From IMG/VR virus record IMGVR_UViG_3300044712_000257, positions 1-42,129 of that record: a stretch of 42,129 nt of DNA; one strand, written 5' to 3'. This DNA is from a virus. The position numbers were made by a program, and so were the translations under genes. Of this stretch, positions 1 through 42,129 are shown piece after piece; position 1 is the stretch's first letter; each line of letters opens with the position of its first letter. Under the pieces are notes generated by a model. That model saw only the letters and a program-made list of their open reading frames with translations. It was not told the origin of the DNA and did not search any database.

Positions 1-127
1 ACATACTATTTTTTAAATAATTTATTATTACTTCATTTTTAGTTGGTCCTGTTATTAAAATGTCACTATTGTAATCTTTGAATTTTAAATTATATTTATC
101 TAATAAATTTTGCTTCATCTCTATTGT
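1..127. repeat. Terminal direct repeat, left copy
   Basis: These bases are identical to 42003-42129. The repeat lies inside a glycosyltransferase gene that reads through the junction in frame when the ends are merged, which indicates a circular or circularly permuted molecule. A repeat of exactly 127 bp equals a common maximum assembler k-mer, so it is more likely assembly overlap than a physical terminal repeat. Confidence 0.95.
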
Positions 128-757
128 CTTTCCTAATCCGTGAAGTTCAAATTTTAAATAATCTTTTAAATATTCATATAGATTTAACATATATTGAGGG
201 TTTTTAAACGTAGCATATCGTCCAATATATGTTATCTTTTTTTCCTTTTTAGTAATACTATTATCGTTGAATGTGTATGGAAGACTAAAGGAACTTAAAT
301 TATCTTTTTTATAATTTAAGTATTCTTTTATAATAGACGCATATGTTCCATCACAATTAAACACATATATGTTATTTACTACATTTATAGCATTAAATAT
401 TTTAGGTATTTTATTTAAATATGCTACAGTGTTAAAATGTAAAAATAATAATAATATTTTTCCTCTTTTCTTTAATTCATATAACATTTGATAAAACCAA
501 TCTATTTGTTCTAGCGTGTATTTATTACTTGGAAGACTGTTAATAATAATAATTTGTGTGTTATTAAAATCATTTAAAAAATTATTAGTATATATGCTAT
601 TTGTTTTGAAATTTCTACTATTTACAAATTTAATATTATCATATGAATAATTAATTATTTTATAATTCTTATTTTTAGACAACTCTAATATGAATTTAGT
701 ACTACCTAGTCCATCTAACGATTGTCCATTTAACCAATAAATAGTATCATTATGCAT
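1..757 (-). CDS. DNA alpha-glucosyltransferase-like protein, N-terminal part (gene continues at 42002-41506)
   Basis: This is the first 60% of a 417-residue GT-B glycosyltransferase that continues across the contig junction and ends at 41506. ATG at 755-757 follows AAAAGG by 8 nt and lies 3 bases after the stop of the hydroxymethylase gene. From memory, it matches T4 alpha-glucosyltransferase (400 aa) in several places. The N-terminal G-x-G-S-T-K-F-x-L-E resembles T4 G-x-G-V-T-K-F-S-L-E. INSLP (residues 72-76) matches INSVP. A His at 107 sits where T4 has its QHDH segment, and IGR-x-A-T-F-K (178-185) matches IGR-T-T-T-W-K. The known role in T4 is to glucosylate 5-hydroxymethylcytosine in DNA from UDP-glucose. 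The linked hydroxymethylase supports the same role here. Sugar and linkage are not determined by sequence. Confidence 0.8.
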   Translation of the reverse strand, partial: MHNDTIYWLNGQSLDGLGSTKFILELSKNKNYKIINYSYDNIKFVNSRNFKTNSIYTNNFLNDFNNTQIIIINSLPSNKYTLEQIDWFYQMLYELKKRGKILLLFLHFNTVAYLNKIPKIFNAINVVNNIYVFNCDGTYASIIKEYLNYKKDNLSSFSLPYTFNDNSITKKEKKITYIGRYATFKNPQYMLNLYEYLKDYLKFELHGLGKTIEMKQNLLDKYNLKFKDYNSDILITGPTKNEVIINYLKNSM

Positions 758-760
758 ATA

Positions 761-1576
761 TTATGCCTTTTTTTGATATATCCAGTTCATCAGGTCACTC
801 TTGGAATCATTGTTCATGACATCTTGATAGAACATATGGTCCGTTTTTGGAAGTGAATATAAAGACCAATTCTTCCAATTAGAGTTGATTATTTCTTTTA
901 TCATATTGAAATGTCTTTCATAAACATGAATAGAAGATGGAATATGAATATATTCTCCTAATGTTAATGTTTTATACTTCTCTTTTAACTTTAAATATAA
1001 TAATTGTTGAAGTATAGTAAAAAATGGAACATCATAACAAAATCCCCAAATTAAATCATTAGAACGCATGTAATTTATAGATATTAATTTATTATTTCTA
1101 ATTAAATATTGAACATCTAATGTACATACAAAGTCATGGGTCCCTTCTATTTTATGTTTAATTTGATTAAAATTAATTACAGCTTGACGCGAATGTTTAT
1201 CTTCTAATAATCTTTCTAAACACCAATCAAATTGTGTTTTATTATTTTTAATTTTTTGTTTTAATGCAATATATCCATATGTTGAATTTATTTTACCATC
1301 TAAACGAATTATATCATTCCACGTTTTAGCATATTTTCTAATAAATTCACCGTTTTTATGTTTTCTAAAATAAAATATTAATTCATGTTTTAAGTATTCT
1401 AAATTTAATTTACGTTCTGGAATTGTGATTATATTATTTAATGGATTTGTAAGAATAATTTTAGGGCAAATTAATTCTTTTGTTTTTATTCCTTTAACGT
1501 TAGTTATACATTGTTTGTTTATTTCATAACAAAGTTTAAATAATAAAACATCAATTGAGTTGCTTTCTATTTTCAT
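761..1576 (-). CDS. Deoxycytidylate (dCMP) 5-hydroxymethylase, thymidylate synthase family
   Basis: This 271-residue protein of the thymidylate synthase superfamily fits the T4 gp42 branch better than true thymidylate synthase. Visible features are GKINSTYG (95-101), the catalytic-Cys segment DFVCT-x-x-VQYLIR with Cys151, MRSND (170-174), Asp182 in GFCYD, and S-x-HVYERHF (215-223). In thymidylate synthase the residue at Asp182 is an Asn that recognises dUMP. Asp there is the dCMP-specific state of T4 gp42 (Cys148/Asp179, the same 31-residue spacing). The enzyme should convert dCMP to 5-hydroxymethyl-dCMP with methylene-tetrahydrofolate. The ATG follows GGAGATAG. It overlaps the kinase gene by 26 bp and precedes the glucosyltransferase. 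A dCMP methylase is the main alternative. Confidence 0.85.
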   Translation of the reverse strand: MKIESNSIDVLLFKLCYEINKQCITNVKGIKTKELICPKIILTNPLNNIITIPERKLNLEYLKHELIFYFRKHKNGEFIRKYAKTWNDIIRLDGKINSTYGYIALKQKIKNNKTQFDWCLERLLEDKHSRQAVINFNQIKHKIEGTHDFVCTLDVQYLIRNNKLISINYMRSNDLIWGFCYDVPFFTILQQLLYLKLKEKYKTLTLGEYIHIPSSIHVYERHFNMIKEIINSNWKNWSLYSLPKTDHMFYQDVMNNDSKSDLMNWIYQKKA

Positions 1577-2096
1577 ATTTTTCTATCTCCTTTTCTATGT
1601 AAAATTCTATTTTTTGCATAGACATTGTTTCATCATTAAACAATTTGAATTTTTTATTGATATTACAATGTTCATACTGTAATAAAAATTCATTTTGTAC
1701 AGGTTTAATTAAATCTTTAGTTATAAATACATCATCAAACCATTTATATATAGTTTCTAATGGTGCTGTTATTAAAATTAATACATTATTATCATTTATA
1801 TTTTTTTCTAAATCTCTTAAATAATTAGGACTATATCCTCTAATTAATAAACCATATACAAATTCCCCTAACCAACCTCTATCATATATGTTACCTACAT
1901 TGTTATTCAATTTATTTATTAATTCTTTATATTGTTTTTTACCATCATTTAAATCTTTAGGAGCTGATAAATGATTATATTTTAATCCATATTTATTACA
2001 CAAATGTTTTGCTATTTTTGTTTTCCCTACACAATCACAACCTTCAAATATTAAATTGTATTTAGATAGTGATTGCTTCAATAAGTTGTTTTTCAT
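1551..2096 (-). CDS. Deoxynucleoside monophosphate kinase (thymidylate-kinase-like)
   Basis: This is a P-loop nucleotide kinase of 181 residues. The Walker A motif is G19-C-D-C-V-G-K-T26, preceded by a hydrophobic strand. A D-R-G-W motif near residue 73 corresponds to the DRxxxS nucleotide-binding motif of thymidylate and deoxynucleoside kinases. I chose the ATG at 2096 because GGAAAGGAAG sits just upstream; a TTG at 2117 is in frame but has no such site. It lies between the uracil-DNA-glycosylase-like gene and the hydroxymethylase. In T4 the kinase gp1 phosphorylates 5-hydroxymethyl-dCMP. By position this protein probably does the same here, but the substrate is inferred. Length is slightly below the 200-220 usual for thymidylate kinases. 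Confidence 0.75.
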   Translation of the reverse strand: MKNNLLKQSLSKYNLIFEGCDCVGKTKIAKHLCNKYGLKYNHLSAPKDLNDGKKQYKELINKLNNNVGNIYDRGWLGEFVYGLLIRGYSPNYLRDLEKNINDNNVLILITAPLETIYKWFDDVFITKDLIKPVQNEFLLQYEHCNINKKFKLFNDETMSMQKIEFYIEKEIEKYENRKQLN

Positions 2097-2514
2097 AATC
2101 TTCCTTTCCAATATCAAATTTTATTACATATGATGGATGTCTTAAAGAAATATAATCTTTTATATTTAATTTTTTTATACTATCTCTCGCAATTGCTCCT
2201 AAAGTAATTATTTTTATAGGTTTTATTTCTTTTATTAATTTATCTAATTCTTCTATTCCTTTGTTTTTTAACTCTTCTGTTATCTTTTCTTTATCTAAAG
2301 AATAATTTATTGCATTAGTAAGAATTATATTTTTTGTTTGTTTAATAACTCTATTAACAAATAATGCTGTTTTATTCTTACTTTCTGAATCAAATGCAAT
2401 ATAATTACCGCTCCTGGGACAATATTTTTTTACTGTCCCAGGGCGTTCACCAACAATAAGAATTATTTTGTTTTTATCTTCAACATTTATTTCATTATTG
2501 TAGTGTTTAATCAT
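2062..2514 (-). CDS. Uracil-DNA glycosylase superfamily protein
   Basis: This 150-residue protein has the layout of family 4/5-type uracil-DNA glycosylases. It shows a GERPG loop (22-26) after a hydrophobic strand, LTN (65-67), a second strand ending LGA (105-107), and RHPS (125-128), the HPS/HPA motif that packs against the DNA minor groove. The iron-sulfur cysteines of family 4 are not seen. The ATG at 2514 lies one base after the stop of the preceding 49-aa gene, so it is probably translationally coupled; an upstream TTG at 2526 is less likely. It sits among nucleotide-metabolism genes and overlaps the kinase. It could remove uracil from phage DNA, degrade host DNA, or recognise another base. 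The true substrate is open. Confidence 0.6.
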   Translation of the reverse strand: MIKHYNNEINVEDKNKIILIVGERPGTVKKYCPRSGNYIAFDSESKNKTALFVNRVIKQTKNIILTNAINYSLDKEKITEELKNKGIEELDKLIKEIKPIKIITLGAIARDSIKKLNIKDYISLRHPSYVIKFDIGKEDYEKQLIEAITI

Positions 2515-2515
2515 A

Positions 2516-2665
2516 TTATTCTTCAATCTGATTTGTTAATGTTCTATAAACTATAGAAATTATTTTTCTTCTTTCTTTTGTGTTCCATTCTGGAAATTTC
2601 TCCTGAAGTTGTTTAACTACGTCTGCAGCTGCTGCTTTACAATCATCATAGTTATACTTGGACAT
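2516..2665 (-). CDS. Small hypothetical protein, 49 aa
   Basis: A 49-residue reading frame begins at ATG 2665 behind an excellent ribosome binding site, AAAGGAGGTGAT. It starts right after the dUTPase-like stop codon, and its own stop (TAA at 2516-2518) nearly touches the glycosylase start. The product is charged and helical-looking, with an Ala-rich stretch, a Phe-Pro-Glu-Trp-Asn motif near residue 29 and basic clusters. I recognise no family. Its placement inside the modification cluster suggests an accessory or regulatory role, but this is only position-based. Confidence 0.7.
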   Translation of the reverse strand: MSKYNYDDCKAAAADVVKQLQEKFPEWNTKERRKIISIVYRTLTNQIEE

Positions 2666-2680
2666 ATTATCACCTCCTTT

Positions 2681-3001
2681 TTAATATTTTTGTTGTTGAC
2701 GTTTGTGATTTATTTCATTCTTTTTACAATATTCATTATACAATTTACTAGGGGTTATATCTAATAATAGTGCTAAATTAATTATAAAATGAATTATATC
2801 AATATATTCTTCTATTAATTTATTTTTATCTATTTCTTTTATTGTTTTCCAAGGTCTCCAATTTGTTTCTTGTAATAATTCAGTTAATTCAACTTTTGCT
2901 GCTAATACATTAATACTAATATTTTCTTGCCATTTTAATTCATATTTCATCTTAGTTTGTAATTGTTTTTGTTTCTTGAAAATTAAATCTAATTTGTCCA
3001 T
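2681..3001 (-). CDS. All-alpha NTP pyrophosphatase (dimeric dUTPase / T4 dCTPase-like)
   Basis: This 106-residue all-helical protein belongs to the dimeric dUTPase/MazG superfamily. The metal-binding pattern is visible: E38-x-x-E41, then N-W-R-P-W-K (47-52), then E65-x-x-D68 in EEYIDIIHF, and a C-terminal K-K-N-E-x-N segment. T4 gp56, which hydrolyses both dUTP and dCTP, belongs to this superfamily and ends similarly (from memory). Next to a dCMP hydroxymethylase, an enzyme that turns dCTP into dCMP would both supply substrate and keep plain cytosine out of phage DNA. Ordinary dUTPase activity is equally possible from the sequence alone. ATG 3001 follows AAAAAGGAGATAAATC. It overlaps the helicase loader gene by 50 bp. 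Confidence 0.75.
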   Translation of the reverse strand: MDKLDLIFKKQKQLQTKMKYELKWQENISINVLAAKVELTELLQETNWRPWKTIKEIDKNKLIEEYIDIIHFIINLALLLDITPSKLYNEYCKKNEINHKRQQQKY

Positions 3002-17727: not shown

Positions 17728-18076
17728 AAAGATACAGCAGTTAAAAAATGTAGCAGAAATAACTATCAATCCAGCGACAGAAACAACATTACAATATTTG
17801 GTTGATGCAAACACTACTTTAAGCCCAGTTACATTTGCTCCAATAGCTACTTCTGATGTTAGAACTTCTTATACTGTAACAGTTGGAAACAATCTAGTAT
17901 TAACTAATGGTGGAAATAAAATTGTAGCGTGGGGTGGCCCAACAGTTACATATGCTACTGGTCAAAAGTTAGTTCCTACACAAGAAAGAGAATGGCTAGG
18001 AGTAGAAACTGGTTTTAAAATATATCTTGTTAATAATACAGGTGAGACAAGCACCATATTACCATGCGAACAATAA
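17720..18076 (+). CDS. Beta-rich putative virion protein, 118 aa
   Basis: This 118-residue protein overlaps the coiled-coil gene by 8 bp and the giant fibre gene by 13 bp. It is Thr/Val-rich with alternating hydrophobic pattern (V-T-V-G-N-N-L-V-L-T-N-G-G) and ends in a G-F-K-I-Y-L-V-N-N-T-G segment reminiscent of small fibre-tip domains. The tight overlaps suggest fixed stoichiometry with the giant fibre. No family is recognised. Confidence 0.6.
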   Translation: MYRKIQQLKNVAEITINPATETTLQYLVDANTTLSPVTFAPIATSDVRTSYTVTVGNNLVLTNGGNKIVAWGGPTVTYATGQKLVPTQEREWLGVETGFKIYLVNNTGETSTILPCEQ

Positions 18077-21000
18077 AATTATTAACTTTTTTTATATTAT
18101 TAATAACTTGTGGTTTTGTTTATGCAGGAAATGTAGATAAACCATTAAATGTTACATCAGAAGATGGAGCTGTAAGCACATATCCATATAAGTTAAAAGT
18201 ATCTAATGGGGCTTTAACTGATAATGGAGATGGAACTACATCTCTTGCTATAGGTGGTGCAGGACTTGAAACTGACCCAGTATATACTACTGATGCACCT
18301 ACTAGATATTTAAAACTTGACCAAACTGCACCACAGACAATAAATAATGGTGCTCCTTTATTTGATGATGGCTTAAACTCAAACGGAAGAATTATACTAG
18401 GGACAGATATTGCTTGGGGTTACCAACCTGGATTATTTATCAATATGCCAGTTGGAGGATTTGGTGGAACAGGAAATAAGAACGCTGCTATTTTTGCAAG
18501 TCCAGCTAGTAGCACAATAGATTTATTTAACAATGCAAATATTGGATTAGTGCAACAGACTAATACTAATAATAATTATTCTTTCTTTAATTTCTATAAT
18601 GCTAATTATTATGACACAGCCACTTTTGGTGTTAAGTATTTGAATCACGATATTGCAGCTCCTTCTGGTAATTTCTTTATAGCAACAGCAAACGGAGCAT
18701 TGCCTACAGTTAAATTAACAGTAGAAAATGATGGGGATGTAGTTTTATCAAAATATACCACAGATGGATTTGTTAAATTTACAGGCTCAACTGGAACATT
18801 GGGAGTAGATACCTCAACCTATCTTGATACAACTACAGCAGGAACAACATATCTTAAATTAGATTGTTCTAATGACCCTTTAACTGGAAGTTTAGATGTT
18901 AATGGGAACGATATTACAAAAATAGATGAAGCAGACTTAAAGAAACTAAAATGGATTCCAATAGATAATCCTATTCCACCAACAGCGGCACAAGTAACAA
19001 CTAATACTGGCAATCTAGATGATGGAACATATTATTATTCTGTAACATATTATAATGCTGACGGAGAAACAAGTCAAAGCACAGCTAGTAATTTAATCAC
19101 AGTTGATGCTACTCACAAACAAGTAACTGTAACTATACCTGTTAGTGCTGAAAGCGTAACTGGAAGAAGGATATACAGAACAAAGAAAAATCCTTCAAGC
19201 ACTGCTTCGCCTTTTTACTTTCTTGCAACAGTAGCAAACAATGCTGATTTGACATATACAGACAATATTGCAGATGCTAGTTTGCCAGCAGGTGATTATA
19301 GAATACGAGGTAATACTACAGCAGGAAGAATGTATTGGAACGCTACTTCAATAGGCAAACTTTCTAATATGAATATAATATTAGGCTATAACGCTGGAAG
19401 TAGCTTGACTGGTGGTGGACTTAATACATTTATAGGAACTAACGCAGGTCAAGATGCTACTTTTGCTTCATATAACCTATGCACAGGAGAGAACGCAGGA
19501 CAGCATTTATCTACAGGCACGCACAACTCATTTATAGGTTCTTATGCTGGATATAATACCACAACTGGTAGTCATAACGCAGGTATAGGTTCTTTTGCTC
19601 TAGCAAATAACTATGGTGGTAATTACTCTACTGGATATGGAACAAGTGCAGGTAGATATTCAACTGGTGATTACAATATTTATTTTGGATATGCTTCTGG
19701 CTATACACCTAATGGAGATATAGCAAATGCAAGCACAACTGGAACAAACAATGTTTTTATTGGAGGGCAAACAGGTCAAGCTACACCAACTCCAGTAAAT
19801 AAGTCAGTTGCTATAGGTAATAACGCAATAGTAACTGGAGATAATCAGTGTGCTATAGGTGGAACTGGAACTGATGCTTTAAATGTTGGTATAAATAATA
19901 ATAATCCACAATATGATTTAGATGTGAATGGTGATGGAAACTTTACAGGTAGAGTAAATGCAGAGAAAGTTTATATGGATACTACTCCATCTGGATATTC
20001 AAATACAGAAGGGCAACTTTGTTATGACGATACATTTCATACTTTGGGAGTTGATTTACTAGAAGGTAGTAGATTGCAGGTAGGACAAGAAACAATGTGT
20101 TATGTATATAACGCTACTGGGTCAAATATAACGCAAGGGCAAGTAGTTTATATAACAGGTGCAAATAGTGGAATTCCAACAGTAGATTTAGCAGATGCTA
20201 CTGATGTTAATAAATCGTTTGTTTTAGGTGTTGTAACTACAGCAATAATAGAACCAACTACTTATGGATATGTTACTATCAGAGGTCATGTTAATACACT
20301 AGATACAAGTGCTTGGACAGTTGGAACAAGTCTTTATTTAAGTGCTACAACTCCAGGTGCATTAACTTCTACTGCACCAAGTGCAGGTAGTTATGATGTA
20401 AGAGTTGGTAGGGTAATGATACAAGATGCAAGTAATGGAAGGGTATATATAAATGTCAGACCAATGGCACAGCTCACTGATTTAGGAGATGTAACTATAA
20501 CCACACCATCAGTTGACCAAGTGCTAGGTTATAACGGAACAGAATGGGTTAATAGAAGCCCAAGTGCAATAAGTGCTGGTCCTGGTATTGAATTCTTTAA
20601 CTGCACTCCAGTAGTTAATTCAAGAACAAGTCCTGCTGGATTATCTGCTGATGGAACATCTGGTAATGGAATACAAATAAATTCATTAAGTAAAACTCCA
20701 GTTACTACAGCAGAACAAACAATAACTGGTTCATCTTCTAGTGATACTAGAGCTTATGTTGCATGGTTATATGATACTGCTTTAGGCAGAACAACAATAG
20801 ATGCTGGTGTATGGGATTTTACTACTTATGCAGCAGTTAATAGCGTATTAGGTGGTCGTGTAACTACAAATACTAGGCAGATATACCAAGTAGTGCCTGT
20901 ATCAAGTGGAACTGTTACTACTACTGATTTAGGTGCTAATACTAAAACAGCTACTATTACATCAGGACAGTTTGCAGGAACATACTTCGCTGCTTCTGCA

Positions 21001-24000
21001 ACAAATACTACTGCTAGTTATTTACAAACACCAAGTGGTATATATCAGATTAGTGCAATAGCAAGTGCAAATTCTGCGACAATAATAGTTCCAACTGGGT
21101 ATTCAAACGAAAATGCAGTTACTTTTAATGTATGGAATAAACTATTTGGTTCTACATCAGGAACTATAACATCAACTGGAACTAACTATGCACAATATGA
21201 CCAATCAGTATCGCAACCTGCTTTTACAATAGCTGCAACAGATAAACTTGGTCAGATGGGATTTGTAACAAGCAATAACACAACTACATTAACAGTTGCT
21301 TATAATGGAACTGCACATTCAACTCATTTTCAAACACCATTAGTAACATTGCATAATAATTTAGCTGGACTGCAGGGTGGTGCTGCTAATGATTATTATC
21401 ATTTAACTGGTGCAACTGTAACTGATTTAACTGACGGAAACGAAACTACATTACATAAACATGGTTCAGCAACTATAACAGAAGCTGACCCATTAGCTAT
21501 TAAGAAAGATGGAGTTGCTGGTGGACAGACATTATATGGTGGAACTGCTGCTAATGATGATTTAACTATACATGGAACAAGTGATGGAACAAGGACTACA
21601 AGTTATTTATTATTGCAACCAACAGCAGGTAAGGTTGGAGTAGGGACTTCAACTATTAATGCTGGAGTAATGGAAATAGGAGCAAGTGGAAATTTTGGTG
21701 CAAGTAACGCTGCTTTGAATATAGTTGATAATTCAGCAAATGCAACTGTTAATTTTCAGAATGTTAAAGCAGGTAATGACGGATATGCAGCTTTTGATTT
21801 CTTTAGTAGCACAGGAAGTAAAAAATTATCTTTTGCATTAAGTAATGCAAGTTCTGGGTATCATGCAGGACAGGCATGGTGCGAAACAAGAGATAATGTT
21901 ACTGATTTTTTAATAGGAACAAATACAACTCCAAGAATATTTATAGATTCTTTAGGTTCGATTGGAATAGGAACATCTAATACGAGTGCTGCCGTTACTT
22001 GCTCTGTTTATGATGCAACAGCAACTACTGGCTCAACTCAACTTTTAGTTCAGGGTGGAGCAACTGCTAATGATGCTTTAACTAATAAATTGTTTAGAAT
22101 AAATAAAGGTGGAGGAACAACAGAAATATTTTCTGTTCAAGGAAATGGAAATGTTGAATTAGGTTCTGCTACTTCAAAGAATAGACTTCAATTAGATGGT
22201 TCAACTACAAATGTAGGTCTTACTTTTGATGTTTCTAATAGTTCTAGTATAGGTCATAACATATATTACAATTCAGGGTGGAAATATCTTTATACTGACC
22301 CACAAGTATCTTTTATTAATCTAGGAGATGGTGGTTCGCCTAATGCAGATATATCATTTTATCAGGCAGCAGCAGGCACAGCAGACAATGCAATAACATT
22401 TACAACTCCTACAATGTATATGAAGAATAGCAATAAGTGTGTAGGTATTGGACTAACTGCTCCTACATCTTCACTTCATGTTGCTTCTACTATAGCTGAT
22501 GGTGCAAGTGCAGTGGCTACTACGATTGATACCACAAGTGCATGGAGCAACGCTGGAGCAAAACTATTATCTCTTAAAAATAATACTTCTGAAAAAGCAT
22601 ATATAGATTATCTTGGAGGAGTTCAGAGTGGTGCAGCAGGACAGGATGGAGAGTTTAGACTGTATAGCGAAGAAGGTGCAACAGACCAATTAGTGACTAT
22701 TAAACCTAACGCTGATATGACTCAAGATACTGTATATACATTACCCCCCAATGATGGTGATGCAAGTTATTTCTTACAGACAGATGGAAGTGGAAATTTA
22801 AGTTGGGCGTTTGCTGCTACTGGAACTTTATCTCACGCTGCTCAACACGCTGTAGGTGTAGCAGATACAGTATATCCTGCCGACCCAAATGCAGATAAGT
22901 TTTTAATGTGGGATGACGCTGGAAGTCATTTAGAATGGGCTACCCCAGTAGGTTCAGGTGATATAACAAGCGTTGGTGATGTTGCAACAGGCGCTGCGTT
23001 TGACGGAACACAAGGAACTACGCTTACATTTTATAATGCAGGTGGTAATGCAACACTTGCTTATGATGGAACAGACTTTGATTTAAGCAAAACAATCACA
23101 ACAGCAGAAGATATAGTTGTTACAGGTTCAGATGTGACAATAGGAGTAGCAGGAGTTAAATTAACAGGTGATGGAGATGGTGCATTAACCTTTTTAGGAT
23201 TAGGTAATGGATATGATGAAGATTTAAAATATAACTTTGATGATGTAGAAAACACAGTTGGTGTTACTTCAAGCACAGGTGTAACTAAAGTTGATTATGA
23301 TGATACTATTGCACTTGAAGGCAAATCTTTCACATCTACAGTAGCAACTGGCACTGCTCCATACGCAGCAACTTCTACAACGCTAAATTCTAACCTTAAT
23401 GCAGACTTACTAGACGGAGAACATATAACTGCGTTTAGTGGGATAGGTAAGAATAAGATAATAAATGGTGCAATGGATATAGCACAGAGAGGAACAAGTT
23501 TTGCTGCGATTGCTAGTGGATATTCATTAGATAGATGGGGATATGTTAATAGTTCTGCGGCTGTGCATACAGTTTCTCAAGACAGTGATACCCCCACTCT
23601 TGCTGAATCTGGTTGTAAATTTAATTATTCACTAAAAGCAGATGTAACTACAGCTGATGCTTCTATTGCGGCTACTGATGTATGTATATTAACTCAAAAG
23701 ATAGAAGGTTATAACATTAGAGATTTAATGGGGAAGTCTATTACTCTCTCGTTTTGGGTTAAAGGAGCAAAAACTGGAATACATTGTGTATCTTTTAGAA
23801 GTTCAGGAGCAGATTTAAGTTATATTGCAGAATATACAATTAATTCTGCTAATACTTGGGAGAAGAAAACAGTGACATTAACAATGTCAAATGGAAGTAG
23901 TGGAACTTGGGGATATACAAACGGAATAGGTGTTTATGTGGATTTTGCATTAAATGCAGGTGCTAATTATCAAACTGCTGCTGGTTCTTGGACTGCTGGA

Positions 24001-24426
24001 AATTATTTAGCAAGTGCTAATCAGGTAAATGAAACCGACAACACAGCAAACAACTTCTGGCTAACAGGTATTCAACTAGAACTAGGGTCAACTGCTACTA
24101 ATTTTGAAGTAAGGAATATTGCTGTAGAGGGTAAATTGTGTCAAAGATACTATGAAACATTAGGTCTTGTATCAAATACGATTCAATTTAGAGGATATGC
24201 CGTAAATGGCGAATACATAATGATTCCAATATTCTTTAGAGAAAATAAAAGAGATGTTCCTACTGTAACTAAATTTGGGACATGGACAACCACAGCAGGA
24301 CAACCAGTTGTAGATTCTCCTTCTGGAAGCAGTTGTAGGATGTATGTTACTGCAGACGCTAATGAGATGACAGGTGCTGCGTCAGTAGATACGACAACTT
24401 ATATAGAAGTTAAATCGGAGTTATAA
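18064..24426 (+). CDS. Giant tail-fibre protein with signal peptide
   Basis: This 2,120-residue protein is the largest in the genome. It has a signal peptide (hydrophobic core, then F-V-Y-A before residue 22). A fibronectin-like domain lies at about 300-420 and contains G-T-Y-Y-Y-S-V-T-Y-Y-N. Residues about 440-610 form a YadA-like head of short repeats with the pattern (N/S)-x-x-I-G-x-x-A-G. A long Thr/Gly/Ala beta region follows. The C-terminal module (about 1796-2070) is frequent in phage tail fibres: N-K-I-I-N-G-A-M-D-I-A-Q-R-G-T, then S-F-W-V-K-G and a C-Q-R-Y-Y-E motif, probably a carbohydrate-binding jelly roll. No intramolecular chaperone motif is seen. It should mediate host recognition. 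The signal peptide is odd for a virion protein. Confidence 0.85.
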   Translation: MRTIKLLTFFILLITCGFVYAGNVDKPLNVTSEDGAVSTYPYKLKVSNGALTDNGDGTTSLAIGGAGLETDPVYTTDAPTRYLKLDQTAPQTINNGAPLFDDGLNSNGRIILGTDIAWGYQPGLFINMPVGGFGGTGNKNAAIFASPASSTIDLFNNANIGLVQQTNTNNNYSFFNFYNANYYDTATFGVKYLNHDIAAPSGNFFIATANGALPTVKLTVENDGDVVLSKYTTDGFVKFTGSTGTLGVDTSTYLDTTTAGTTYLKLDCSNDPLTGSLDVNGNDITKIDEADLKKLKWIPIDNPIPPTAAQVTTNTGNLDDGTYYYSVTYYNADGETSQSTASNLITVDATHKQVTVTIPVSAESVTGRRIYRTKKNPSSTASPFYFLATVANNADLTYTDNIADASLPAGDYRIRGNTTAGRMYWNATSIGKLSNMNIILGYNAGSSLTGGGLNTFIGTNAGQDATFASYNLCTGENAGQHLSTGTHNSFIGSYAGYNTTTGSHNAGIGSFALANNYGGNYSTGYGTSAGRYSTGDYNIYFGYASGYTPNGDIANASTTGTNNVFIGGQTGQATPTPVNKSVAIGNNAIVTGDNQCAIGGTGTDALNVGINNNNPQYDLDVNGDGNFTGRVNAEKVYMDTTPSGYSNTEGQLCYDDTFHTLGVDLLEGSRLQVGQETMCYVYNATGSNITQGQVVYITGANSGIPTVDLADATDVNKSFVLGVVTTAIIEPTTYGYVTIRGHVNTLDTSAWTVGTSLYLSATTPGALTSTAPSAGSYDVRVGRVMIQDASNGRVYINVRPMAQLTDLGDVTITTPSVDQVLGYNGTEWVNRSPSAISAGPGIEFFNCTPVVNSRTSPAGLSADGTSGNGIQINSLSKTPVTTAEQTITGSSSSDTRAYVAWLYDTALGRTTIDAGVWDFTTYAAVNSVLGGRVTTNTRQIYQVVPVSSGTVTTTDLGANTKTATITSGQFAGTYFAASATNTTASYLQTPSGIYQISAIASANSATIIVPTGYSNENAVTFNVWNKLFGSTSGTITSTGTNYAQYDQSVSQPAFTIAATDKLGQMGFVTSNNTTTLTVAYNGTAHSTHFQTPLVTLHNNLAGLQGGAANDYYHLTGATVTDLTDGNETTLHKHGSATITEADPLAIKKDGVAGGQTLYGGTAANDDLTIHGTSDGTRTTSYLLLQPTAGKVGVGTSTINAGVMEIGASGNFGASNAALNIVDNSANATVNFQNVKAGNDGYAAFDFFSSTGSKKLSFALSNASSGYHAGQAWCETRDNVTDFLIGTNTTPRIFIDSLGSIGIGTSNTSAAVTCSVYDATATTGSTQLLVQGGATANDALTNKLFRINKGGGTTEIFSVQGNGNVELGSATSKNRLQLDGSTTNVGLTFDVSNSSSIGHNIYYNSGWKYLYTDPQVSFINLGDGGSPNADISFYQAAAGTADNAITFTTPTMYMKNSNKCVGIGLTAPTSSLHVASTIADGASAVATTIDTTSAWSNAGAKLLSLKNNTSEKAYIDYLGGVQSGAAGQDGEFRLYSEEGATDQLVTIKPNADMTQDTVYTLPPNDGDASYFLQTDGSGNLSWAFAATGTLSHAAQHAVGVADTVYPADPNADKFLMWDDAGSHLEWATPVGSGDITSVGDVATGAAFDGTQGTTLTFYNAGGNATLAYDGTDFDLSKTITTAEDIVVTGSDVTIGVAGVKLTGDGDGALTFLGLGNGYDEDLKYNFDDVENTVGVTSSTGVTKVDYDDTIALEGKSFTSTVATGTAPYAATSTTLNSNLNADLLDGEHITAFSGIGKNKIINGAMDIAQRGTSFAAIASGYSLDRWGYVNSSAAVHTVSQDSDTPTLAESGCKFNYSLKADVTTADASIAATDVCILTQKIEGYNIRDLMGKSITLSFWVKGAKTGIHCVSFRSSGADLSYIAEYTINSANTWEKKTVTLTMSNGSSGTWGYTNGIGVYVDFALNAGANYQTAAGSWTAGNYLASANQVNETDNTANNFWLTGIQLELGSTATNFEVRNIAVEGKLCQRYYETLGLVSNTIQFRGYAVNGEYIMIPIFFRENKRDVPTVTKFGTWTTTAGQPVVDSPSGSSCRMYVTADANEMTGAASVDTTTYIEVKSEL

Positions 24427-41208: not shown

Positions 41209-41522
41209 AAAACCTCCTTTATCCTATCCAGTTCAAATAAAAAATACTTAAACTTCTTGATGATTCTTTGTCTTATTCTACAAACTTCTGATTCACAAAT
41301 ATTCAATTTTATACATATTAATTTATATTCTTTATATTTTAATAAATATTTGTATATTTTATATTGTTTTTTACTCAATATTTTAGGTGCTAATTTATTT
41401 AAATAGTCAAGTTGTCTCCACAACAATTCTCTATTTTCAAAAGTTTTAGTTGGCAATAATTCAAAATATTTAGGGTCTTTTATCGCAAAAAAATAATTAT
41501 ATTTATTAGAATTTAAATTCAT
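41205..41522 (-). CDS. Sigma-70 region 4-like HTH protein
   Basis: This 105-residue protein is very basic and ends with an HTH like sigma-70 region 4: L-S-K-K-Q-Y-K-I-Y-K-Y-L-L, then L-I-C-I-K-L-N-I-C-E-S-E-V-C-R-I-R-Q-R-I. I prefer ATG 41522, 11 bases after AAAAGGATGA; ATG 41537 is in frame but directly abuts that site. It follows the glucosyltransferase gene with a short overlap. It could direct late transcription or act as a DNA-binding regulator. Only region 4 is visible, so a complete sigma factor is ruled out. Confidence 0.65.
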   Translation of the reverse strand: MNLNSNKYNYFFAIKDPKYFELLPTKTFENRELLWRQLDYLNKLAPKILSKKQYKIYKYLLKYKEYKLICIKLNICESEVCRIRQRIIKKFKYFLFELDRIKEVL

Positions 41523-42129
41523 ATTGTGATGTATCATCCTTTTCTTTTTTTCTTAATTTTTTGTCATAATAATATATTCTATTTTTTGATAACTTTAAAT
41601 CACTTAAATCATAGCAAATATCATTGGCCTTATCATATTTTTCTTTTAATAAATGCCTTTTTAAATCATTAATTGATTTATAATTGTTTAAATAATTTAT
41701 TTGATTGTATATTTTATCAAATATAACAGATTGATTGCAATGTTTCATAGCTTCTTCTTTTTGTGCATATATTATTTCATTTCTAGCAGATTCATTATTA
41801 ATTAAATAAATAATTTTTTTACTTAATTCTTCAAAATTATCATTTTCTATTGTTAAAAATTTACGATAATTAAATCCGGCGTTTTCTAAACAATGCTTAG
41901 TAAATATACAAATACAATTGTTGTCTATCATTTCATACATTGCGTATTCTATTCTATTACCATAATCGTTTTTGTTTTTTAAAGTAAATCCTGAAAAAGC
42001 AAACATACTATTTTTTAAATAATTTATTATTACTTCATTTTTAGTTGGTCCTGTTATTAAAATGTCACTATTGTAATCTTTGAATTTTAAATTATATTTA
42101 TCTAATAAATTTTGCTTCATCTCTATTGT
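41506..42129 (-). CDS. DNA alpha-glucosyltransferase-like protein, C-terminal part (gene begins at 757)
   Basis: This is the C-terminal part of the 417-residue glycosyltransferase that starts at 757; bases 42003-42129 repeat 1-127. The part unique to this end begins in the second Rossmann-like domain. G-P-T-K-N-E-V-I-I-N-Y and N-S-M-F-A-F-S-G are followed by N-R-I-E-Y-A-M-Y-E-M with Glu271 and Glu276. The E-x4-E spacing equals that in the matching T4 alpha-glucosyltransferase segment, L-E-Y-T-H-L-E-L (from memory), a region that contacts the sugar nucleotide in GT-B enzymes. The last 60 residues are a charged extension not found in T4. The stop is at 41506-41508. Confidence 0.8.
   Translation of the reverse strand, partial: TIEMKQNLLDKYNLKFKDYNSDILITGPTKNEVIINYLKNSMFAFSGFTLKNKNDYGNRIEYAMYEMIDNNCICIFTKHCLENAGFNYRKFLTIENDNFEELSKKIIYLINNESARNEIIYAQKEEAMKHCNQSVIFDKIYNQINYLNNYKSINDLKRHLLKEKYDKANDICYDLSDLKLSKNRIYYYDKKLRKKEKDDTSQYEFKF
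42003..42129. repeat. Terminal direct repeat, right copy
   Basis: This copy is identical to 1-127 and should be counted once when the contig is closed. Confidence 0.95.

Follow-up and report, generated by a model that had tools for sequence, protein, structure and literature searches.

To our knowledge, nearly all work on T4-style cytosine replacement has concerned large tailed phages that possess replisomes of their own. In T4 the pathway genes are scattered, whereas here they form a contiguous operon; the two have in common the homologous dCTPase-dUTPase, dCMP hydroxymethylase and alpha-glucosyltransferase families, to which T4 adds a beta-glucosyltransferase and its own polymerase. The kinase of T4, gp1, is unrelated to the kinase of the operon, and T4 has no UDG-family match whereas the operon carries a UDG-superfamily gene. 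The closest known cluster is gp306/gp313 - gp315 - gp319 of Bacillus phage G, whose genome is 498 kb as against 42 kb here. It comprises, within ~11 kb, two alpha-glucosyltransferases (gp306 and gp313, homologous to the enzyme described here at 25% identity), a protein in which homologues of the kinase (7e-22) and of the UDG domain (9e-9) are fused (gp315), and gp319, a D-type enzyme resembling dCMP hydroxymethylase that is annotated, probably wrongly, as a thymidylate synthase. Phage G additionally has a putative CMP/dCMP deaminase (gp317) and a DnaE-like polymerase nearby, and its match to the pyrophosphatase is encoded away from the cluster. The human faecal phage contig MT837767 has dUTPase_2, thymidylate kinase and D-type hydroxymethylase genes in one cluster, as here, with HAD/PNKP-like and cytidylyltransferase-like genes between kinase and hydroxymethylase; no glycosyltransferase of the alpha-glucosyltransferase family was found on it.

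The window (the whole stretch of DNA analysed, 42,129 nucleotides) is a circular contig of an environmental phage, with an exact 127-bp repeat at both ends (42003-42129 is a copy of 1-127) and thus a genome of 42,002 bp. On the minus strand it carries a six-gene operon of ~3.5 kb, transcribed in the order pyrophosphatase, small ORF, UDG-like protein, kinase, hydroxymethylase and glycosyltransferase. The four enzyme genes listed in the initial annotation are all present where it had placed them, with matches far beyond chance, and chance motif resemblance was rejected. Its statement that they stand in pathway order does not hold, as the kinase precedes the hydroxymethylase in transcription. Two ORFs between the named genes, at 2516-2665 and 2062-2514, were absent from it; the latter encodes the UDG-superfamily protein, and the former (2516..2665, minus strand; 46-49 aa) has a strong Shine-Dalgarno sequence, AAAGGAGGTG, and no match in a Pfam search.

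The 271-aa product of 761..1576 (minus strand) is, judged from its residues and its ranked matches, near-certainly a dCMP-type hydroxymethylase and not a thymidylate synthase. Pfam and NCBIfam label the gene only as thymidylate synthase (Pfam superfamily match, 4.8e-18), and its score is far under every NCBIfam thymidylate synthase cut-off. Among PDB entries the best match is T4 gp42 (4.2e-22), followed by the CMP hydroxymethylase MilA (5e-17), with the best thymidylate synthase at 4.3e-8. The published hydroxylation signature consists of S-x-Y and, three positions ahead of the catalytic Cys, an Asp, and gp42 D179 is the cytosine determinant (PMC6400193). Every signature residue is kept: S98, Y100 and D148 correspond to Ser94-x-Tyr96 and Asp145 of gp42, C151 to Cys148, and D182 to Asp179. 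At this last position, the dCMP/dUMP determinant, the SPO1 dUMP hydroxymethylase and ordinary thymidylate synthases have Asn. The enzyme also has R130 and S172, the deoxyribose-type Arg/Ser pair, where MilA has Lys/Ala (PMC5175136).

Only 3 bp separate the hydroxymethylase from the glycosyltransferase gene, which spans the contig ends. Its N-terminal 252 aa are encoded at 1..757 (minus strand, continuing at 42002) and its C-terminal part at 41506..42129 (minus strand), joined via the 127-bp repeat; read as 757-1 plus 42002-41506, the halves form a single uninterrupted ORF of 417 aa. A false gene made by the terminal repeat was rejected since the reading frame continues through the junction. 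Sequence profiles support membership of the T4 DNA alpha-glucosyltransferase family, GT-B fold. The protein matches PHROG 2888 (alpha-glucosyltransferase) at 3.1e-17, and a family profile built with T4 left out finds T4 AGT at 4e-31 among ORFs and, in the PDB, T4 alpha-GT (1y6f, 7.8e-30) as the sole family matched. By direct comparison the T4 enzyme is matched only weakly (blastp 7e-4 against a tiny database), AGT was not matched in a phmmer search of the PDB, and the joined protein did not match Pfam AGT (PF11440) at E 0.1, nor did a six-frame search; the phage G homologues do match PF11440. The glycosyltransferase of the window lies on a long branch. R180, K185, E271 and E276 correspond to T4 R204, K209, E306 and E311 and are invariant across all aligned homologues. 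On the acceptor side T4 H114 is kept, while T4 D115, which we take to be an acceptor-side residue, aligns with Phe108; some relatives have Glu or Thr there, and most hydroxymethylase-linked relatives have Glu. Because of this Phe, the acceptor and sugar of the enzyme are less certain than hydroxymethylcytosine (hmC) itself. The best matches that the initial annotation had named as telling against it, thymidylate synthase and non-DNA glycosyltransferases, were not encountered: T4 gp42 is the best match of the one enzyme, and PHROG alpha-glucosyltransferase and T4 AGT are those of the other.

The operon begins with an all-alpha NTP pyrophosphatase of dCTPase/dUTPase type (2681..3001, minus strand; 106 aa), which matches Pfam dUTPase_2 (1.3e-19) and a PHROG of NTP pyrophosphohydrolases (6.5e-15). 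It is a homologue of T4 gp56, which blastp matches at 1.6e-6 and with which it shares the motifs EEYIDIIHF and KNEINHKRQ, and is predicted to act on dCTP as well as dUTP; the family takes in plain dUTPases too. The P-loop (deoxy)nucleoside monophosphate kinase (1551..2096, minus strand; 181 aa) is of the YorR/thymidylate-kinase type. It matches PHROG 761 (thymidylate kinase) at 4.8e-9, and SPbeta YorR (2axp/3kb2) is its closest solved relative both by family profile (2.6e-16) and by Foldseek search with the predicted structure (pLDDT 88.9). YorR is called "uncharacterized" in its PDB title, and its complex holds a GDP-type nucleotide. Sequence comparison revealed no detectable relation to T4 gp1, and homology with gp1 was rejected in favor of the SPbeta YorR/thymidylate kinase group. 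The proposal that homologues of all four T4 steps are present therefore stands for the pyrophosphatase, hydroxymethylase and glycosyltransferase and fails for the kinase.

The UDG-superfamily protein (2062..2514, minus strand; 150 aa) is family-4-like, and its gene overlaps the start of the kinase gene. It matches Pfam UDG above cut-off (1.6e-7), its profile matches the family-4 UDG 4zbx (2.9e-12), and the best Foldseek match of its model, which is of moderate confidence (pLDDT 67.5), is 4zby. The GE-x-PG, TN and HP motifs are present, and so, in that model, is the UDG fold. No 4Fe-4S cysteines of the family-4 kind can be seen among its 150 aa, which contain a single Cys, and the protein is therefore classed with the superfamily and not with family 4. 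Brig1 is likewise reported to have 4zby as its best structural match, and to have Glu147 where the protein here keeps the TN-motif Asn (PMC11078745). Unlike family-4 UDGs and the defence glycosylases Brig1 and Brig3, it is encoded by a phage within a modification operon. An alignment scan for relatives found phage G alone, and the iterated profile stayed at four members. Of 45 modification-gene records, 6 have a Pfam UDG match, 4 of these above cut-off, so the protein is not regarded as a core part of the pathway.

Scans of viral_contigs with the glycosyltransferase or the kinase as single proteins returned no relatives; the glycosyltransferase family profile returned 57 loci. A D-type hydroxymethylase is present in 19 of the 31 other records bearing the glycosyltransferase, set beside any thymidylate-synthase-family match in 805 of 50,697 phage records (1.6%), a count that differs in sensitivity from the first. 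Relatives of the kinase directly adjoin D-type hydroxymethylases at four loci (L022 and L038-L040).

The phage is probably short-tailed, as had been proposed, judging by gene content: its TerL is closest to that of the Paenibacillus podophage API480, its capsid and portal are closest to those of Arthrobacter phage Jasmine, an internal virion protein (PHROG 511) is present, and the PHROG search gave no tape-measure or sheath match. No DNA polymerase is recognisable in the 42-kb genome. A Shine-Dalgarno pattern at 30 of 47 starts and a DnaD-like loader encoded by the phage point to a putative host in the Firmicutes; a search of genome_contigs with a capsid profile gave one weak MAG contig. No account of a T4-type pathway in a podovirus was found in a literature search that covered few subscription papers.

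The operon is best read, with a probability of roughly 0.78, as a divergent minimal variant of the T4/phage G cytosine hypermodification pathway, and the phage DNA is predicted to be modified. The sequences themselves establish the families and active-site residues of hydroxymethylase, glycosyltransferase and pyrophosphatase, the fold of the kinase and the gene linkage seen in relatives, and the enzymatic steps are predicted from them. The pyrophosphatase would convert dCTP (and dUTP) to the monophosphate, clearing unmodified cytosine from the pool and supplying dCMP, which the hydroxymethylase would convert with methylene-THF to 5-hydroxymethyl-dCMP. The YorR/TMK-type kinase would phosphorylate hm-dCMP, host NDP kinase would yield hm-dCTP, and the host replicase, proposed because no phage polymerase was found, would incorporate it into phage DNA to an extent that is itself a prediction. 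The glycosyltransferase would then flip the base and add a hexose to the hydroxymethyl group, most likely alpha-glucose from UDP-glucose, with glucosylated hmC as the predicted final product; the sugar would shield the DNA against restriction and CRISPR nucleases. Base quality control, the removal of uracil or of hydroxymethyluracil (hmU) from deaminated hmC, is the most likely role of the UDG protein. More speculatively, and probably not the case, it may form one functional unit with the kinase, split here and fused in phage G, that guards base identity while cytosine is being replaced, for instance by removing unmodified or deaminated bases that were incorporated in error, and lets a phage dependent on the host replicase reach near-complete replacement.

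The most serious alternative, though an unlikely one, is that hmC is made and incorporated while the glycosyltransferase uses another sugar or acceptor or is inactive, leaving plain hmC or a different glycosyl-hmC. The Phe at the T4 D115 position, the long branch and the known arabinosyl relative of hmC glycosylation in RB69 (PMC6024577) would fit this; the intact 417-aa ORF and the retention of all the retaining GT-B donor-site residues together with H114 speak against it. It is improbable that the genes serve to make dTTP and exclude uracil from DNA, with an unrelated glycosyltransferase beside them, even though adjoining dUTPase_2, UDG, thymidylate-kinase-like and thymidylate-synthase-superfamily genes would make a coherent set for that purpose and Pfam and NCBIfam name no other function for the synthase-like enzyme. 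That enzyme is nearest to T4 gp42, falls far short of the thymidylate synthase cut-offs, and has D148 and D182, which are absent from thymidylate synthase (PMC6400193), so an ordinary thymidylate synthase was rejected; its gene, moreover, lies next to one of a DNA glucosyltransferase family, and linkage to D-type hydroxymethylases is seen among the relatives of that neighbour. Hydroxymethylation of dUMP, giving SPO1-like hmU DNA that is then glycosylated, is more improbable still and was likewise rejected. SPO1 gp29 belongs to the same enzyme family (blastp 5e-10) and the SPO1 polymerase gp31 bears a UDG domain, but T4 gp42 is much closer (1e-26), the cytosine/uracil determinant is Asp and not Asn, and the pyrophosphatase resembles the dCTPase gp56.

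As a minimal cytosine hypermodification pathway, the operon is a short, clonable version with which to ask what suffices, and Bacillus phage G provides a testable cultured relative. The tie between a UDG-superfamily domain and a modification kinase bears on Brig1, Brig3 and other glycosylases that target hmC. The presence of all six genes within ~3.5 kb of a 42-kb phage with no recognisable polymerase suggests that the pathway may be a portable module able to use the host replicase.

The window is a virus record with an exact 127-bp repeat common to both ends, giving a circular assembly of 42,002 bp with a G+C content of 32%. Assemblers commonly use a k-mer length of 127, so the repeat probably reflects assembly overlap rather than a biological terminal repeat. 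The predicted cytosine-modification genes lie on the minus strand. First in reading order is the pyrophosphatase gene (3001-2681), then come a small ORF (2665-2516) and the gene for a UDG-superfamily protein (2514-2062), which overlaps the kinase gene (2096-1551); the latter in turn overlaps the hydroxymethylase gene (1576-761). Last is the gene for an alpha-glucosyltransferase-family protein (GT; 757 to 41506 across the record ends), which crosses the junction as a single 417-aa frame. Spacing is operon-like, with overlaps or gaps of 1 to 15 bases. Neither the small ORF nor the UDG-like gene was noted in the initial annotation, and the "pathway order" it described is wrong because the kinase gene stands before the hydroxymethylase gene.

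Pfam and NCBIfam name the hydroxymethylase merely "thymidylate synthase", with NCBIfam scores far under every thymidylate synthase (TS) cut-off. A PDB search placed T4 dCMP hydroxymethylase first (4.2e-22), as had been proposed, followed by the CMP hydroxymethylase MilA (4.7e-17), with thymidylate synthases at 4e-8 or worse. Published dCMP hydroxymethylase markers are Asp179, which selects cytosine over uracil, Asp145, three residues ahead of the catalytic Cys148, and Ser94-x-Tyr96 (PMC6400193); D182, D148, C151, S98, and Y100 align at these places in the window enzyme. In MilA, which prefers CMP, Lys and Ala stand in place of the Arg and Ser shared by the window enzyme and T4 (PMC5175136). 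SPO1 dUMP hydroxymethylase and ordinary synthases differ from the window enzyme in having Asn at the 179 place, which is Asp (D-type) in all GT-linked homologues collected except one record, L100, whose sole match is an Asn-type synthase. Judged by sequence, the window enzyme is almost certainly a dCMP hydroxymethylase.

The joined GT matches PHROG 2888 (alpha-glucosyltransferase; 3.1e-17, 345 residues covered); Pfam searches gave a sub-threshold match to Glycos_transf_1 and no match to AGT. Among phage proteins it is closest to gp306 and gp313 of Bacillus phage G and to a protein of Geobacillus phage GR1. A profile of these and the window GT (n=4, T4 left out) finds T4 AGT at 4e-31 among collected ORFs and, across the whole PDB at E <0.01, T4 AGT only (7.8e-30), bearing out the suggested DNA alpha-glucosyltransferase relationship, with no non-DNA glycosyltransferase matched. 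Equivalents of T4 R204, K209, E306, and E311 are invariant across all aligned homologues, and the window GT keeps His at the T4 H114 place; directly after it, T4 has Asp, the window GT Phe, the GR1 group Thr, and most hydroxymethylase-linked relatives Glu. A tree puts the window GT on a long basal branch, apart from the GR1 group, in which hydroxymethylases are lacking. GR1-type GTs with the motif HTSF form a clade in records L020, L050, L065, L048, L060, and L064, where a search found no D-type hydroxymethylase. Support is good for placing the window GT in the T4 alpha-glucosyltransferase family; both its sugar and its acceptor are predicted.

The compact pyrophosphatase belongs to dUTPase_2 (Pfam, 1.3e-19) and directly resembles T4 gp56 (1.6e-6). 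A T4-type dNMP kinase had also been claimed, but sequence comparisons found no relation between the window kinase and T4 gp1; by profile and fold (model pLDDT 88.9) it groups with SPbeta YorR and thymidylate kinases. For the UDG-superfamily protein, the Pfam UDG match exceeds the cut-off, and both profile (2.9e-12) and fold (model pLDDT only 67.5) match family-4 UDGs; the Fe-S cysteines of that family are missing. It may be active, because motifs GE-x-PG, TN, and HP are all present, and its favoured role is excising uracil, or hmU from deaminated hmC. Activity on glucosyl-hmC like that of the defence glycosylase Brig1 is disfavoured: such an activity would be self-destructive, and the residue for base recognition, equated with Brig1's by motif, is an Asn of the ordinary type (PMC11078745).

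Phage G encodes two GTs, gp315, and the D-type enzyme gp319, whereas the window has a single GT. Gp315 (L031:654-1646) fuses relatives of the window kinase (7e-22) and UDG protein (9e-9), which are separate adjoining genes in the window. Gp319 (L094:11449-12492; L104), annotated as thymidylate synthase, has Gly at the Ser94 place and is probably a dCMP hydroxymethylase because Asp stands at the dCMP determinant and ahead of the catalytic Cys. A 2026 study names alpha-GT homologues in phage G (PMC13216743).

D-type hydroxymethylases occur in 19 of 31 further records that encode a GT of this family (some near-duplicates), versus 1.6% of 50,697 phage records for any TS-family protein matched by the window hydroxymethylase, a rough control as the searches are unequal in sensitivity. 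Kinase relatives directly adjoin hydroxymethylases in L022 and L038-L040, UDG, GT, and kinase occur together in L061, and an ORF with a weak UDG match lies between hydroxymethylase and GT in L044 and L045. In SPO1, a phage with hmU DNA, the N-terminus of DNA polymerase gp31 (L026:17203-19068) is a UDG-superfamily domain (Pfam, 1.7e-24). Two further cassettes were observed. Marine Autographiviridae AP013540 (L103:8672-10693) encodes an NTP-pyrophosphatase, thymidylate kinase, TS-like enzyme, and dCMP deaminase; the TS-like enzyme, with Asp at the dCMP determinant but no acid ahead of Cys, could be a dCMP methylase. In human faecal phage contig MT837767 (L021:3352-7552), one cluster encodes dUTPase_2, thymidylate kinase, HAD/PNKP-like, cytidylyltransferase-like, and D-type hydroxymethylase proteins, possibly for another hmC decoration.

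The terminase is closest to that of Paenibacillus podophage API480, and capsid and portal to those of Arthrobacter phage Jasmine and the sister contig L087 (capsid 52% identity). The 33-kb L087 record has no hydroxymethylase match and an early region unrelated to that of the window; the modification module is therefore accessory. "Short-tailed" is plausible for this phage, not proven. The sole match for a 2120-aa late protein (18064-24426) is to a tail-fibre PHROG, at its C-terminus (residues 1794-2088). No DNA polymerase was found in family scans of nearly all window ORFs of at least 85 aa, and therefore the host replicase probably uses hm-dCTP.

The T4 scheme is the best-supported reading of the cluster, each step drawn from homology: dCTP would be hydrolysed, dCMP hydroxymethylated, hm-dCMP phosphorylated, the modified nucleotide incorporated into DNA, and the incorporated hmC glycosylated. 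For every step, the chemistry is backed by published T4 work. The strongest competing account of the core, a thymidylate/uracil-exclusion cassette, fails against both the hydroxymethylase specificity residues and the GT. The pathway kind is already known from T4, with a looser relative in phage G; new are its arrangement as a compact, contiguous cluster within a 42-kb genome where no own polymerase was found, a kinase unlike that of T4, and the linked UDG-superfamily gene.
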